This document shows positions 39,014 to 44,828 of a stretch of 53,195 nt of DNA, one piece after another. A model generated the notes under the pieces. That model searched no databases. It was not told where the DNA came from and saw only the letters and a list, made by a program, of their open reading frames with translations. The stretch is from Bacteroidales bacterium (lineage in GTDB: Bacteria > Bacteroidota > Bacteroidia > Bacteroidales > UBA932). The DNA lies in contig JAFYRK010000023.1 in the NCBI GenBank assembly GCA_017559545.1, forward strand, positions 1 through 53,195, written 5' to 3'. How positions within the stretch are numbered: position 1 is the stretch's first letter; the number at the start of each line of letters is the position of its first letter. A program made the position numbers and the translations under genes.

Positions 39014-41332
39014 TTAAATGTTCAGCGTAACCTTGAACATGATGTTGAGAGGAGCCTGTGGATAGAGTCCGGTCTCGGAGTAGTAGAGATCATCCTGCTG
39101 GAAATAGGCGCGCCACAGCCAGGCATCTGCATAGTACTTATGATTGAAGATATTGTGGATGTGGAAGCTGAAGGTCAGAGAGCCTTCCCTATCATCACGA
39201 ACAAAGCCAAGGAACTTTCTCAAAGGCACACTATAACCGACTGCCATATCAGCCACGAAATAAGCCGGGATGGCACGCTCGTCTGATGATGTGTTGTCAT
39301 AGTACTGGCGACCCACATATTTACCGTTCAATGTCAGATAGGCAGAACTGAGAGAACCGACAGAGGAAACGAACGGGCGGAACGTGGCGGAAGCCATGCC
39401 GACAAGGGACGGAGACATGAGGATATCTGTATTTCTGAAATCCACTGTGTGCTGTCCAAGGAAGTTCCAATCGTTCATGTTGTCATACATTTCATAGTAC
39501 GCAGTATAGGCTTTTATCTTATTGGTAGACAATGTCATATTTCCGCCCACCTGAAGCCATGAAAGAGGTTCCCAAGAAGCGGCAAACTCCACTCCGCGGC
39601 GCCAGCTGCGAGGCACATTTTCCTTGACCGCATAACCCACATCAGTAAGCTTTCCAGTCTCTATGAGCATATCCCAATACTCCATCATATAAAGGTTTGC
39701 AGCCAACGAGAAACGCTCTCCTACATACTCGTAGCCGAGCTCGATATCCAACATCTTCTCTGGTCGGATATCCACTCCACGTGAAGCCACGCCGGCCTCA
39801 ATAGATTTGTTGGCATCCAGAATCAGCTCCTTGATGTCGCTTCGGCCCGGCTCACGATGTCCCAGAGCCGCAGATGCATACACGCGGGACGAAGGACTCC
39901 AGCGGTATGAAAGACCTGCACGCGGATTGAAGAACTGCCAGTTATCCTTATGATCCAACAACACACCGTCATCCTCCGGTCCAGCCATTGAGAGCCATAC
40001 TCCCCTGTATTGAAGATCAGCAAACGCAGTAAAGCCATCAAAGCAAAGCACTTCCCCACGAACAAAAGCGTTTGCCTCATGCTTCAGACCACGGTTGAGA
40101 TACCATTCATGGTTGTCATAATCAAAGGAATCTCCGAGTATATTGCTCCATAGTACGGAACCGATATGGTCACCGTCATAACGTGAGAGATTGATACCTC
40201 CTGTCAGAGTCAGAACTTCAGAAGCATAACGGAGATCGGAACTCAGCACGAAATAATCGTTCGCCAGCGCCTCCTTGGTTATGAAGTCCCCCTCATCATA
40301 AGTCACTCCGTCAACCACAGGATCCGGCATCAAGTACTTCGAGAAGGATTTCCCTGCCTTATAATTCTCATAATACCCGTCACCACGGGTATAATTGAAT
40401 GTCGTGCTCCATGCGAGCTGGTCTGTAAACGCATGTGTATAGTTCAGCTGAAGGTGATGCTGAGCGTAGTTATCTGTTTCATTATCATAATAATGCACAT
40501 TGCCGAACTGATCATAATACTCTCCAGCAGGATTATATCGACGGTCAACCGCATACATCTCCGGGCTTATGCCCTCCCATGTGATTCCTGTGCGCTGAGA
40601 TCCCATGAGCCATGTCAGACGCAAGGAATTACGGTCATTCATCCAGCCAAGCACCGCCATTGCAGAATGCACATCGGCAAAGGCATTGCGGATATATCCG
40701 TCTGTCATTCCACGAGAATATGCGGCATTGAAATAGACTCCCGAATCCAACAATCCGGAACCTGCAGCAAACGAACCTATATAGGTTCCATATGAGCCCA
40801 AAGCCATCTCGGCGGAAGCGAATGGATCTGCACCTACGGCCGCAGTGCTCATGTTTATACTTGCGCCGAAGGCACCGGCGCCATTGGCAGAGGTGCCGAG
40901 TCCGCGCTGTAGCTGGACACTTGAAATCATAGACGACAAGGCTGGGATGTTTACCCAAAAGACCTCCTGAGACTCCGCATCATTCAGAGTTATTCCATTA
41001 AGAGTCACATTGATCTGCGAACCTTTTGTACCACGTACCGTCATCTTGGAGTATCCAAGACCTGTACCGCCCTCATTCAGTGAGATCACCGAAGGCTGAA
41101 GGCCAAGGTTCATAGGAAGTGAGTTGAGAGGATTGGCGCGGCGGAGTTCCTCCTTGCCGACCATCGTGAATGTCACAGGCGTATTCCTGCCTGCGCGTGA
41201 TGTTGAGACGACGACACTGTCCAATCTCTCGACCTTCTCCTCATTACCGGAGAGAGCCGCTTCTTTCTCCGCACCTTGTGCGGAAAAAGGGATCAGCGAA
41301 CAAAGCGCTGCTAAAAACAAAAAACCTCGCAT
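39014..41332 (-). CDS. TPP-riboswitch-controlled TonB-dependent receptor, probable thiamin-compound importer
   Basis: I chose ATG 41332, giving MRGFLFLAALCSLIPFSAQG as signal peptide; an earlier ATG (41371) adds 13 residues without a sensible signal. The 772-residue protein lacks a SusC-type N-terminal domain. It has the TonB box region RLDSVVVSTSRAGRNTP, a plug with MTVRGTKGSQINVTLNGI and VQLQRGLGTSANGAGAFG, and a barrel ending LNIMFKVTLNI. The upstream TPP aptamer predicts repression when thiamin pyrophosphate is plentiful. Known Bacteroidota relatives under such riboswitches import thiamin or its precursors. No inner-membrane PnuT-type partner lies next to it here. Confidence 0.93.
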   Translation of the reverse strand: MRGFLFLAALCSLIPFSAQGAEKEAALSGNEEKVERLDSVVVSTSRAGRNTPVTFTMVGKEELRRANPLNSLPMNLGLQPSVISLNEGGTGLGYSKMTVRGTKGSQINVTLNGITLNDAESQEVFWVNIPALSSMISSVQLQRGLGTSANGAGAFGASINMSTAAVGADPFASAEMALGSYGTYIGSFAAGSGLLDSGVYFNAAYSRGMTDGYIRNAFADVHSAMAVLGWMNDRNSLRLTWLMGSQRTGITWEGISPEMYAVDRRYNPAGEYYDQFGNVHYYDNETDNYAQHHLQLNYTHAFTDQLAWSTTFNYTRGDGYYENYKAGKSFSKYLMPDPVVDGVTYDEGDFITKEALANDYFVLSSDLRYASEVLTLTGGINLSRYDGDHIGSVLWSNILGDSFDYDNHEWYLNRGLKHEANAFVRGEVLCFDGFTAFADLQYRGVWLSMAGPEDDGVLLDHKDNWQFFNPRAGLSYRWSPSSRVYASAALGHREPGRSDIKELILDANKSIEAGVASRGVDIRPEKMLDIELGYEYVGERFSLAANLYMMEYWDMLIETGKLTDVGYAVKENVPRSWRRGVEFAASWEPLSWLQVGGNMTLSTNKIKAYTAYYEMYDNMNDWNFLGQHTVDFRNTDILMSPSLVGMASATFRPFVSSVGSLSSAYLTLNGKYVGRQYYDNTSSDERAIPAYFVADMAVGYSVPLRKFLGFVRDDREGSLTFSFHIHNIFNHKYYADAWLWRAYFQQDDLYYSETGLYPQAPLNIMFKVTLNI

Positions 41333-41392
41333 AATGTATGCACATTTATGCAAGGGGCAGACATGGCGCACATGCGCACATATACAATGAGA

Positions 41393-41474
41393 TTATGCGT
41401 CCCTACGCCGGCATTATCCGGATCAGGTTCATGGGTATGATCTCAGCCTCGGTCACCCGTGGCACCCCTGCAAG
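41393..41474 (-). promoter_or_regulatory. TPP (thiamin pyrophosphate) riboswitch aptamer
   Basis: The minus strand carries the conserved THI-box pieces in order: GGGGTGCC (about 41461-41468), GGCTGAGA (41441-41448), ACCC (41433-41436), GAACCTGATC (41421-41430) and GCGTAGGGA (41400-41408). A leader of about 60 nt separates it from the receptor ATG at 41332. It contains repeats of TGTGCGC that could form part of an expression platform. There is no U-tract terminator, so translational control is more likely. The aptamer begins only 10 bp after the preceding stop codon. Confidence 0.96.
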
Positions 41475-41483
41475 TATTTTATA

Positions 41484-42239
41484 TTACTTCTTCTCTATTA
41501 TTCTGACCTCATACAATCTAGGCCAGTTCTTGCCGGTCAGATAAATCTTTCCGGTCCTGGAGTCATAAGCAATTCCGTTCAAGACGTCAGTGCCCACAGC
41601 ACGGAGCTTGTCGGGAAGGAGTCCGTGGCAGTCAATTACTCCTTCTACACGGCCGTCCTTAGGATTGATCATGACTATCTCGTCGGTAGTATAGACATTC
41701 GCCCATATCTTTCCGTCGATGTATTCAAGTTCATTGAGCCAACGTACAGGTCTGTCTTCCAACTTAACCACAACCTTGCGGCCAACCTTGAAATTCTCAT
41801 CCATGAAATATAACATGGATGAACCATCCGATGCGATAAGCTGCTTTCCGTCTGTTGTTATGCCCCAGCCTTCACGTGGATATTTCCATGAAGTCTTGAA
41901 TTCCAATGTATTGGCATCATATACAAAAGCCGCTCGGCTCTCCCAGGTAAGCACATAAAGATTGTCCTTGAACATTACGGAACCTTCAATGAAGTATTTC
42001 TCGTTAAAGGTAATCTTCTCCAAAGCCTCGCCAGTCTGCATGTCCACCTTACGGAAAGTGGACTTGCCATGCAGTCCTGTGCTCTCATACATCTGTCCGT
42101 CCTGGAAGAAAAGTCCCTGGGTATAAGACTCGACATCATGAGGATATTCAGCTACAACCTCTGCCTTATACTCCCTGACTTCGGCCGGCCCGCAAGAGAT
42201 AAGTATAAGTGACACAAGTATTGAAAGAATTAACCTCAT
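41484..42239 (-). CDS. Glutaminyl-peptide cyclotransferase-family lipoprotein
   Basis: The 251-residue lipoprotein (MRLILSILVSLILISC) belongs to the plant-type glutamine cyclotransferase family, a five-bladed beta-propeller that forms N-terminal pyroglutamate. Blades are seen in ESYTQGLFFQDGQMYESTGLHGKS, YVLTWESRAAFVYD, EGWGITTDGKQLIASDGSSMLYF, VRWLNELEYIDGKIWANVY, and the final VLNGIAYDSRTGKIYLTGKNWPRLYEV. These contain the conserved Glu, Trp and Asp residues of the family. In Bacteroidota the enzyme acts in the periplasm or at the outer membrane, modifying signal-cleaved proteins with N-terminal Gln, including many SusC proteins; the role here is inferred. The TPP aptamer starts 10 bp downstream. 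Confidence 0.94.
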   Translation of the reverse strand: MRLILSILVSLILISCGPAEVREYKAEVVAEYPHDVESYTQGLFFQDGQMYESTGLHGKSTFRKVDMQTGEALEKITFNEKYFIEGSVMFKDNLYVLTWESRAAFVYDANTLEFKTSWKYPREGWGITTDGKQLIASDGSSMLYFMDENFKVGRKVVVKLEDRPVRWLNELEYIDGKIWANVYTTDEIVMINPKDGRVEGVIDCHGLLPDKLRAVGTDVLNGIAYDSRTGKIYLTGKNWPRLYEVRIIEKK

Positions 42240-42316: not shown

Positions 42317-42324
42317 TACCTTTG
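42317..42324 (+). promoter_or_regulatory. -7 promoter box of the steroid-reductase-like operon
   Basis: TACCTTTG matches TAnnTTTG, 26 bp before ATG 42351. It rules against an upstream in-frame start at 42312, which would precede the expected transcription start. Confidence 0.6.
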
Positions 42325-42350
42325 CGCGACGTAGATTTGAGGTTGATGAT

Positions 42351-43130
42351 ATGAATACATATTATATCATAATGGCATGCATGGCAGTGATGGCGGTGAT
42401 CGTCTTCGTTGCCCTATTCTTCTTTAAGGCCGGATACGGCTATCTATCAACCTCGAACTGGGGGCCGAAGATAGGAAACAAGACTGCATGGGTCCTCATG
42501 GAGGCACCCGCATTCATCTTCCTGCTATATTACACCATAAGGTTCGCACTTTCCGGAGCTGATACAGGCAACTCAAAGGCTGTTCTCTACATTATGGCTG
42601 GATTCTACCTCCTGCACTACTTCCAGAGGTCGTTCATCTTCCCACTGATGATGCGAGGAAAGAGCACCATGCCGATTGCCATAATGCTGATGGGACTGGT
42701 ATTCAACACATTGAATGCATATCTGATTGCAGGATGGCTATATGGCGAAGCACCGGCAGGCATGTATGGAACCGAGTGGCTCTGGAGCCCTCAGTTCATC
42801 ATCGGAACAATAGTGTTCTTTGCAGGAATGGCAATCAACCTGCACTCTGACCATGTGATCCGCAACCTGCGCAAGCCAGGTGATACAAAGCATTATATCC
42901 CCCGCAAGGGATTTTATAAATACGTAACATCTGCAAACTACTTTGGAGAGTTTACCGAATGGATAGGCTATGCCATTCTGACTTGGTCACCTGCCGGACT
43001 TCTCTTCGCCGTATGGACCTTCGCAAACCTCGGTCCACGCGCCAAGTCGTTGACAGAGAAGTACGTAAATGAGTTTGGAGAGGAATACAGCAAGCTTGGC
43101 AAAAAACATATTATACCATTCATCTGGTAA
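42351..43130 (+). CDS. Steroid 5-alpha-reductase-family membrane protein
   Basis: The 259-residue protein starts MNTYYIIMACMAVMAVIVFV and has about six hydrophobic segments. Its C-terminal half is the steroid 5-alpha-reductase domain, with the NLHSDHVIRNLRKPGDTKHY segment, GFYKYVTSANYFGEFTEWIGYA (the conserved N-Y-x-x-E motif), and a terminus of FGEEYSKLGKKHIIPFIW. The family reduces the C4-C5 double bond of 3-oxo-4-ene steroids with NADPH to the 5-alpha product. Its start codon follows a -7 box, and its stop overlaps the next ATG by one base (TAATG). With the next gene it resembles the 5AR/5BR pair linked to allo-bile acids. Confidence 0.93.
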   Translation: MNTYYIIMACMAVMAVIVFVALFFFKAGYGYLSTSNWGPKIGNKTAWVLMEAPAFIFLLYYTIRFALSGADTGNSKAVLYIMAGFYLLHYFQRSFIFPLMMRGKSTMPIAIMLMGLVFNTLNAYLIAGWLYGEAPAGMYGTEWLWSPQFIIGTIVFFAGMAINLHSDHVIRNLRKPGDTKHYIPRKGFYKYVTSANYFGEFTEWIGYAILTWSPAGLLFAVWTFANLGPRAKSLTEKYVNEFGEEYSKLGKKHIIPFIW

Positions 43131-44386
43131 TGAGCGAATTGTTTACACCATATAAGATCGGCCCGATAGAGCTGAGGAACAGAACCGTACGATCTGCGGC
43201 TTTTGAAGCGATGTGCCCTGGTCAGAGACCTTCAAAGGAGCTTTTTGACTACCACACAGCAGTGGCACGCGGCGGTATCGGAATGACTACGGTAGCATAC
43301 GCTGCCGTTTGTCAGAGCGGACTTTCGTTTGAAAACCAGCTTTGGATGCGTGAGGAAATTGTTCCGGAGCTGAAGAAACTCACTGACGCAATCCATGCCG
43401 AAGGGGCCAAGGCATCGATCCAGCTGGGCCACTGCGGAAACATGTCCCACCGCTCGATCTGCGGATGTATGCCTTACGGTGCAAGCCGTGGGTTCAACCT
43501 GTACTCACCCACATTCGTCCAGAAGATGAACATTGAGCAGATCAATGAGGTTGCAGACGCATACGGAAAAGCTGTAGAGCTTGCCATCGAGGCAGGTTTT
43601 GATGCGATTGAGATTCACGCTGGACATGGATACCTGATCTCACAGTTCCTCTCGCCGTACACAAACAAGAGGCGTGACGAGTTCGGAGGAAACTTGGAGA
43701 ACCGAATGAGGTTCATGAAGATGTGCGTGAGCAAGGCTGTTGCAGCAGGAAAAGGCAAGGTTGCCCTTTTCGCGAAACTGAACACCCGCGACGGATTCAA
43801 GGGCGGCCAGGAGACAGACGAACTTATTGAAGTGGCAAAGGAACTGCGTAACCTCGGAATCGAGTCCATAGTATTGTCTGGAGGCTTTGTAAGCCGCCAC
43901 CCACAGTACGTCATGCGCGGACAGTTCCCCGTAAAGGCAATCGTGCATTACTTCCCATGGAGCAAATGGTGGCTTAAGCTCGGCGTGCTGCTCGGAGGTA
44001 AGATTGTAGCTCCTGCAGTGCCGTTCAAGAAGCTCTTTTTCATGGAGGATGCGTTGAAGTTCCGTGAAGCGATGCCGGACTTCCCGTTCACTTACGTGGG
44101 CGGCGTGACAGACCGCAAGAGCGCTGACGAGGCTATCGAGAAGGGTTTCCCTATGATCCAGATGGGACGCGCCGTGCTCGAAGACACAGACTTCGTGAAC
44201 AAGATGCAGGCTGACGAGAACCACTGCAGCGGCTGTACACACAGCAACTTCTGCATCGGTCGAATGTACTCGAAATCAATGCAATGCCACAAGCATTGCG
44301 AAGACATAACCCCAGCGCTCCGCAAGGAAGTCGAGCGCCTCGACCGCGAAAACGATAAGATCGAGCGCAAGCTGGGTTATAAATAA
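43130..44386 (+). CDS. Old Yellow Enzyme-family flavin reductase, probable 5-beta-reductase partner
   Basis: The 418-residue protein is an FMN TIM-barrel NADH:flavin oxidoreductase (MSELFTPYKIGPIELRNRTVRS). The active-site block EIHAGHGYLISQFLSP (H163, H166), the RRDEFGGNLENRMRF segment, and the phosphate-binding GGVTD and MGRAVLED segments are intact. A Cys cluster (C366, C369, C375, C386, with C390) suggests a 4Fe-4S site as in dienoyl-CoA reductase-type members. The C-terminal FAD/NAD domain of long BaiCD/BaiH proteins is absent. Similar short flavoenzymes pair with 5AR in Bacteroidales to reduce 3-oxo-4-ene steroids to 5-beta products. Substrate here is inferred. Confidence 0.92.
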   Translation: MSELFTPYKIGPIELRNRTVRSAAFEAMCPGQRPSKELFDYHTAVARGGIGMTTVAYAAVCQSGLSFENQLWMREEIVPELKKLTDAIHAEGAKASIQLGHCGNMSHRSICGCMPYGASRGFNLYSPTFVQKMNIEQINEVADAYGKAVELAIEAGFDAIEIHAGHGYLISQFLSPYTNKRRDEFGGNLENRMRFMKMCVSKAVAAGKGKVALFAKLNTRDGFKGGQETDELIEVAKELRNLGIESIVLSGGFVSRHPQYVMRGQFPVKAIVHYFPWSKWWLKLGVLLGGKIVAPAVPFKKLFFMEDALKFREAMPDFPFTYVGGVTDRKSADEAIEKGFPMIQMGRAVLEDTDFVNKMQADENHCSGCTHSNFCIGRMYSKSMQCHKHCEDITPALRKEVERLDRENDKIERKLGYK

Positions 44387-44491: not shown

Positions 44492-44501
44492 TAAAAAATA
44501 T

Positions 44502-44818
44502 AGGTAGAATGACTTGTCGCGCCGAAAGGTGAGGAAAGTCCGGACTGGAAAGGGCAACCTGCTGTGGAAAGCACAGATGGGAGTAATCTTATGAATGCCG
44601 TAACAGAAAACAAACCGCCCGCAAGGGCAAGGGTGAAACCGTGAGGTAAGAGCTTACGACATCGTGTGGCGACATACGGTGGTGACGGCACCAGGACCAG
44701 AAAGATCATGTATACCGGAACGCCCGCAAGGGCAAAAGGGCTGCCCGCTCTTTTCCGGGGGGTAGATCGAGAAGATAAATGACAAGATAAAACAGAAACC
44801 GGCTTACTGTTCTACCTA
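44502..44818 (+). ncRNA. rnpB: RNase P RNA, bacterial class A
   Basis: The catalytic RNA of ribonuclease P removes tRNA 5' leaders. The stretch is bounded by TAGGTAGAA (44502-44510) and TTCTACCTA (44810-44818), a perfect P1 stem. Inside are the universally conserved pieces: GAGGAAAGTCCGGACT after the P3 region, ACAGAAAACAAACCGCC, the GGGCAAGGGTGAAACCGTGAGGTAAGAGC block and the final AGAAACCGGCTTACTG pairing to the 5' core. Length, about 317 nt, is normal for Bacteroidota. It has its own promoter and terminator. Confidence 0.96.
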
Positions 44819-44828
44819 TATTCATATA

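Follow-up and report, generated by a model that had tools for sequence, protein, structure and literature searches.

A steroid 5-alpha-reductase family gene and an Old Yellow Enzyme gene form a conserved pair in Bacteroidales with a probable role in steroid A-ring reduction

The window studied here, a stretch of 53,195 nucleotides that forms one contig (C113) of a Bacteroidales genome of 2.13 Mb in 150 contigs (69% complete), carries a two-gene operon which, judging from the families of its products, probably serves to turn the steroid A ring from the bent 5-beta to the flat 5-alpha form. The first gene encodes a membrane protein of the steroid 5-alpha-reductase family (AR) and the second an Old Yellow Enzyme (OYE). 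Profile matches place AR among the steroid 5-alpha-reductases and OYE among the Oxidored_FMN proteins, and at this family level the original prediction of a bile-acid type reductase pair is supported. For the substrate class, the stereochemistry, the direction of the reactions and the pathway role of an unlinked short-chain dehydrogenase (SDR) gene, we infer the assignments described below.

Locus organization

The locus consists of the following features.

41484..42239, minus strand: glutamine cyclotransferase gene (PF05096), divergent and upstream of AR
42317..42324, plus strand: promoter element TACCTTTG, a Bacteroides-type -7 box, letters read directly
42351..43130, plus strand: AR, steroid 5-alpha-reductase family membrane protein, 259 aa (PF02544)
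43130..44386, plus strand: OYE, Oxidored_FMN protein, 418 aa (PF00724, HxxHxY)
44225..44287, plus strand: OYE Cys cluster C366-x2-C369-x5-C375-x10-C386, last three Cys invariant
44501..44822, plus strand: RNase P RNA class A (178.5 bits), directly 3' of the OYE gene

The AR frame runs from an ATG at 42351 to a TAA at 43128-43130, and the OYE frame from an ATG at 43130 to a stop ending at 44386. The two genes have one base in common at the junction TAATG, so that the predicted one-base overlap of an AR gene with a Cys-cluster OYE gene is found in the letters. A single promoter ahead of the pair had also been proposed. The element TACCTTTG begins at 42317, the start coordinate given in the original prediction, 34 bases ahead of the AR start codon, and agrees with the Bacteroides -7 consensus TAnnTTTG. 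To place the locus among its relatives, genome contigs were searched with an AR profile, which gave at least 571 relatives, the best 80 of which are the named AR loci; 48 of these belong to the window's lineage. A TAnnTTTG box was located no more than 130 bases upstream of AR in 47/47 same-lineage loci among these best 80 of at least 571, the 48th (L101) being excluded as its blast match starts inside the protein.

The glutamine cyclotransferase gene was matched in 48/48 lineage loci of the same set; it is a marker of the chromosomal site of the pair and is not taken as a functional partner. On the other flank, an opposite-strand ORF of the RNase P stretch was matched in 22 of the 48 lineage loci (best 80 of at least 571), from which the site may be a stable one. 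Further out, a TPP riboswitch (41382-41479, minus strand, Rfam RF00059, 65.3 bits) lies directly upstream of a gene at 39014-41371 (minus strand) that by eye looks like a TonB-dependent receptor and is perhaps a thiamine-regulated outer-membrane transporter.

The AR family and its catalytic residues

Grouping with non-steroid DUF1295 membrane proteins was the outcome that the original prediction set against itself. AR scored 136.1 bits with PF02544 (cut-off 22.6) versus 27.3 bits with DUF1295, which rules out a DUF1295 protein; there were zero matches to NCBIfam models. The AR profile matched the structures of PbSRD5A (PDB 7c83, E=9.2e-66) and human SRD5A2 (7bw1, E=1.1e-49), and art-1 at E=2.2e-14. 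Apart from the window gene, Steroid_dh gave one further, weak match in the same genome, of 26.8 bits (G000:C61:61699-61998, L002).

Residues were numbered on PbSRD5A (7c83), a Proteobacterial enzyme, after the portion of PMC7815742 available to us, and their descriptions were taken also from part of PMC7591894. The catalytic Glu (codon 42501-42503) and Tyr (codon 42618-42620) are present in the window AR and, mapped to PbSRD5A, are kept in 133/133 close Bacteroidales ARs (131 distinct sequences, as L079/L135 and L093/L136 are the same contigs) and in 7/7 distant ones. At the Gln position of the QEY motif there is a Met (codon 42498-42500), so that the window AR carries a Met-Glu-Tyr variant instead of the full motif. 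As the mutations Q56A/L are described, in the portion of the source available, to abolish the activity of human SRD5A2, this Met is a peculiarity of the family. Since it occurs in all 133 close and all 7 distant homologues, we regard it as a family feature. A homologue from Nocardia farcinica (NZ_LN868939.1, L232; 33.5% identity) by eye also reads Met-Glu at this position, and the variant thus extends beyond Bacteroidales. Plant DET2 has Met there too.

The cofactor site shows a mixed picture. Of the 133 close ARs, 130 to 133 retain the NADPH contacts N159, D163, R170, N192, E196 and R226, whereas R34 and Y177 are substituted in most of them and H230 in all 133. In the seven distant ARs, R34 and Y177 are kept in 7/7 and H230 in 6/7. 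Mutations of NADPH contacts impair PbSRD5A activity, according to the part of PMC7815742 that we could draw on. Overall, the Bacteroidales ARs have the family and the catalytic Glu and Tyr in common with PbSRD5A and human SRD5A2, and differ from them in the Gln to Met exchange and in the mostly replaced R34, Y177 and H230.

The OYE family and its Cys cluster

OYE scored 178.4 bits with PF00724. A second (FAD/NAD) domain was looked for in its 418 aa and none was found. The best NCBIfam model was that of BaiCD (NF041087) with 192.1 bits over a best stretch of residues 3-255; the BaiCD cut-off is 825 bits, and no other NCBIfam model gave a score up to its own cut-off either. The 2,4-dienoyl-CoA reductase or FadH type has the Cys spacing CX2CX3CX11C. 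This spacing was found in 0/118 rows of an alignment of the window OYE with those of 117 loci (116 distinct sequences). By contrast, the residues H163, H166 and Y168 (HxxHxY) and the Cys pattern CX5CX10C (C369-x5-C375-x10-C386) occur in 118/118 rows, and 117/118 have an extra Cys of variable position no more than 10 residues away. BaiCD and 2,4-dienoyl-CoA reductase OYEs have the FMN barrel in common with the window OYE, but differ in Cys spacing and in the second domain; BaiCD and FadH are ruled out as identities, the scores lying far below cut-off.

An ordinary OYE of the order is ruled out by identity to the window OYE. Pair-associated OYEs in the order comparison are at least 53% identical to it, whereas the other OYEs of the order reach 31-36% over about 190-255 residues and 30-46% over shorter stretches. 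The second grouping named against the prediction was one with enoate reductases of other pathways; the OYE of the pair is set apart from the other OYEs of its order. Identity to the window OYE is 60.3% in Phocaeicola massiliensis and 58.0% in Parabacteroides distasonis. With an FMN barrel, HxxHxY and co-encoding with an AR, the protein is a putative 5BR-type OYE like that of the Bacteroidetes cluster. The steroid 5-beta-reductase of Clostridium innocuum shares the FMN barrel, a likeness drawn by description and not from its sequence. In a plasmid search with OYE, 2 of the 10 matches listed of 2417 records were from Bacteroidales; the remaining matches listed were at most 40% identical and came from Nocardia, Tsukamurella, Rhodococcus, Sphingobium and others, and the two non-Bacteroidales match regions inspected contained no 5-alpha-reductase annotation.

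Conservation of the pair

The OYE gene is present in 80/80 named AR loci, and in 79/80 it follows AR directly, no more than 600 bases away and on the same strand (best 80 of at least 571). Some arrangements depart from this order: L126, from a goat omasum MAG, has a permuted operon OYE-SDR1-SDR2-AR, and G468 and G482 have SDR1-AR-OYE. Interrupted OYE frames were seen in L104 (two ORFs, 9129/9130), G470:C63 and G018:C78, by decay or assembly error.

We then sampled the genus with 150 genomes, all of 80% completeness or more except the window's own, which stands at 69%. AR was found in 74 of them and OYE likewise in 74; 72 have both, 74 have neither, and two each have only one, a co-occurrence beyond what chance would give. 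The two AR-only genomes (G475, G518) have partial AR matches, and the two OYE-only genomes show an in-frame stop (G470) and two fragments (G529). In all 72 genomes with both, OYE is downstream on the same contig and strand, with 5-116 bases between match ends. Pairwise identities of AR and OYE are correlated (Pearson 0.85, 118 rows), which kinship alone could give as well.

At the level of the order, 110 of 392 genomes had an AR match. The 60 loci taken, with two close (G244, G360) and many distant ones left out, showed OYE beside AR in 40/53 close loci, none nearby in 13/53, and 0/7 among distant loci. One of the 13, G039, has a related OYE on a separate contig. In one genus, AR is conserved in L169, L174 and L177 with an OYE (about 48-49% identical) downstream after a gap, and in L168 and L171 (G381, G424) AR is conserved with OYE missing nearby. 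L112, L114 and L102 have an AR 57-63% and an OYE 72-73% identical to the window, a discordance that may come from OYE transfer or recombination between lineages. Altogether, it is probably the AR-OYE pair, and not the three-gene cluster, that is conserved as a unit.

Dehydrogenases beside the pair in other Bacteroidales

Frequently, one or two SDR genes, referred to below as SDR1 and SDR2, come after the pair in other Bacteroidales. The 32 other named loci (of the best 80 of at least 571) have SDR1 in at least 23 and SDR2 in at least 8; for the 53 close order loci the figures are at least 26, at least 23, and at least 33 for either, all of these being lower bounds because contig ends cut some loci. 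Such AR-OYE-SDR arrangements were seen in records of Phocaeicola, Alistipes and Muribaculaceae. In Phocaeicola massiliensis (OY726067.1), for example, the order is AR-OYE-SDR2, and identity to the window proteins is 50.8% for AR and 60.3% for OYE. AR is absent from the locus of Parabacteroides distasonis (NZ_OY725754.1), where an RND pump and ribosomal protein L25 flank OYE-SDR1. L162 has AR-OYE-SDR2 with L25 on one side and, by eye, an RND-like ORF on the other; this synteny with P. distasonis makes it a probable Parabacteroides in which AR has been retained.

The cluster for isoallo-bile acids was reportedly first described by Sato (2021) and Li (2021). Judging by gene content and taxa, we infer that the loci found here are these published clusters. 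In the sections of PMC11271093, PMC12697870, PMC9645264 and PMC12789469 that were available, a species with the epithet merdae, Odoribacter laneus, Bacteroides dorei and Alistipes are linked to 5-alpha-reductase. The Bacteroidetes 5AR-5BR-3-beta-HSDH cluster for isoallo-lithocholic acid, as far as covered by the same parts of PMC11271093, PMC12697870 and PMC9645264, combines a PF02544 reductase with an OYE in one Bacteroidales operon, as seen here. The presence of this pair together with SDRs in records of Phocaeicola, Alistipes and Muribaculaceae supports, at family level, the predicted resemblance to the bile-acid 5AR-5BR cluster. The window lineage differs from it in that an adjacent SDR is absent and an SDR1-family gene is unlinked.

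An unlinked candidate for the missing dehydrogenase

The original prediction had found no dehydrogenase gene adjacent to the pair and suggested that it might be encoded elsewhere. Indeed, SDR1 or SDR2 stands beside the pair, up to 8 kb on each side, in 0/48 window-lineage loci (best 80 of at least 571), so that the lineage lacks the dehydrogenase inside a 5AR-5BR-3-beta-HSDH cluster. Searching the rest of the genome for a 3-beta-HSDH, as had been proposed, yielded an SDR1-family candidate. The SDR1 profile gave 204 bits with a gene at C99:3424-4218 of the own genome (G000), the next SDR reaching 70 bits; cluster SDR1s score about 226-482 bits and other SDRs at most 105, save one of 123 in G029. 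The SDR2 profile had no counterpart above background, with 38 bits in the own genome and at most 63 bits in 7 sister genomes, versus 300-507 bits in three cluster-bearing genomes. The C99 SDR has the YxxxK site and is 34% identical to a cluster SDR1. Its surroundings follow the order FUR-SDR-trxB-bamD-recN in 7/7 regions (own genome and six sisters), where FUR, Pyr_redox_2 and YfiO are family matches and the names trxB and recN were given by eye. In G155, from a sister genus, the SDR adjoins bamD and trxB gave no match.

In a maximum-likelihood tree of 71 rows, the C99 SDR falls with the cluster SDR1s (group support 99/90), split from a few generic SDRs with support 100/100. The 123-bit gene (L226), on a long branch, is also inside the SDR1 clade. 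As the rows were picked by profile (69 ORFs by the SDR1 profile plus 2 SDR2) and long branches were flagged, the tree is support and not proof.

Next, the distribution over the genus was compared by AR type, split by match length, with 3 long and 2 partial AR matches kept separate. Among the 32 genomes with the window AR type, 31 have an SDR1-family match, unlinked in every case, and G029 has none. In the case of the second AR type (37 genomes), SDR1 lies within 6 kb in 30, is unlinked in 6 and is lacking in 1. Over the 150 genomes AR and SDR1 occur together in 69, AR only in 5, SDR1 only in 23 and neither in 53 (Fisher p 1.6e-16, uncorrected for descent); shared descent could be the cause as well, and 23/76 genomes without AR have an SDR1-family match. 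A generic SDR was considered for the C99 gene, which we keep as a candidate 3-beta-HSDH; such a gene would fit the suggestion of a dehydrogenase encoded elsewhere.

Host lineage and bile-acid context

The window's genus is probably Candidatus Cryptobacteroides, as the genus-named MAGs in its lineage bear this name. By record titles and species epithets, the genus inhabits ruminant hindgut, poultry and horse. By title, 17/18 RGIG (ruminant) loci come from the large intestine, 12/12 in the window lineage (best 80 of at least 571). The large intestine makes up 48.3% of the unknown species-level genomes in the RGIG study, according to the excerpt of PMC8199421 at hand. The excess has a binomial p of 4e-5, calculated with an all-taxa base rate and for a lineage that may itself be of the hindgut.

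The own genome also has a choloylglycine-hydrolase family gene (C98:2898-3833, 192.9 bits), present in 5/7 sisters. Four AR-less genomes gave one strong match (G022), two of 36-37 bits and one none, and G033, of the second AR type, had a match of 38 bits only; this gene does not follow AR strictly. Because of the choloylglycine-hydrolase family gene and the hindgut origin of the relatives, bile acids are, on circumstantial grounds, the likeliest substrate. A limited literature search gave no mention of Cryptobacteroides, which is said of the texts covered and not of print at large.

Proposed function and alternatives

In the proposed scheme, OYE would act as an FMN-dependent 5-beta-reductase in either direction, interconverting 3-oxo-5-beta and 3-oxo-delta-4 steroids. 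AR, in the membrane, would then reduce the 3-oxo-delta-4 steroid from its alpha face, with NAD(P)H donating a hydride to C5, and yield a flat 5-alpha (allo) steroid. Jointly, both enzymes would take a bent 5-beta bile acid or steroid to its flat 5-alpha isomer. Oxidation and reduction at C3 would be left to dehydrogenases encoded apart, the candidate being the SDR1-family gene beside the trxB-like gene. Several observations speak against this scheme: the Met in QEY, the replaced R34, Y177 and H230, the AR without OYE in 13/53 close loci, the NCBIfam scores of both proteins, the 34% identity of the C99 SDR to a cluster SDR1 and its link to the pair through co-occurrence, and the choloylglycine-hydrolase family gene that does not follow AR strictly.

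A tentative variant, specific to the Cryptobacteroides lineage and in our view rather unlikely as a whole, would see the pathway pared down to a core, the pair being a self-contained, redox-balanced C5 epimerase, in which the electrons taken by OYE from a 3-oxo-5-beta steroid pass via NAD(P)H to AR for the 5-alpha isomer, with no net redox change and no obligatory C3 step. The Met-Glu-Tyr motif, the altered cofactor contacts and the three-Cys cluster would then be adaptations, and the dehydrogenase would be uncoupled at a trxB redox locus.

Next to this, the substrates could be steroids that do not stem from bile acids, namely host hormones, products of cholesterol or ketones of plant sterols, and the pair would take away the delta-4 bond as an electron sink without a meaningful 5-beta to 5-alpha flip. 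AR stands without OYE in 13/53 close and 7/7 distant order loci, as such a sink would allow, but bile acids are far more abundant in the hindgut. In the available parts of the sources, hormone-active gut 5-beta-reductases of the OYE family are described (PMC12238238), and the structurally known AR-family enzymes reduce progesterone or testosterone. Against this, a 5-alpha-type and a putative 5-beta-type enzyme on one transcript fit interconversion better than a single sink, and we consider the reading unlikely. Reduction of an endogenous non-steroid lipid or enone (polyprenol, enoyl lipid or quinone) in the cell's own metabolism is very improbable, since, although the AR fold takes in enoyl-CoA reductases (the art-1 matches) and also polyprenol reductases, and OYEs are promiscuous, AR is far closer to the steroid 5-alpha-reductases, both genes are missing from 74/150 genus genomes, unlike a core lipid function, and SDRs are frequent neighbours in other Bacteroidales.

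Conclusion

The isoallo-bile-acid cluster, whose gene content the AR-OYE-SDR loci match, was already known. New are the pair without an adjacent SDR, the unlinked SDR1 candidate, the Met-Glu-Tyr motif and a CX5CX10C Cys cluster unlike textbook forms. A genome search for the complete three-gene cluster would overlook the window lineage, for which a concrete candidate for the missing dehydrogenase, the unlinked SDR1-family gene, can now be named. The flat bile acid isoalloLCA promotes regulatory T cells and inhibits Clostridioides difficile, according to the portions of reviews available to us. If the proposed function of the pair is true, the genetic capacity for flat bile acids would extend to an uncultured genus.
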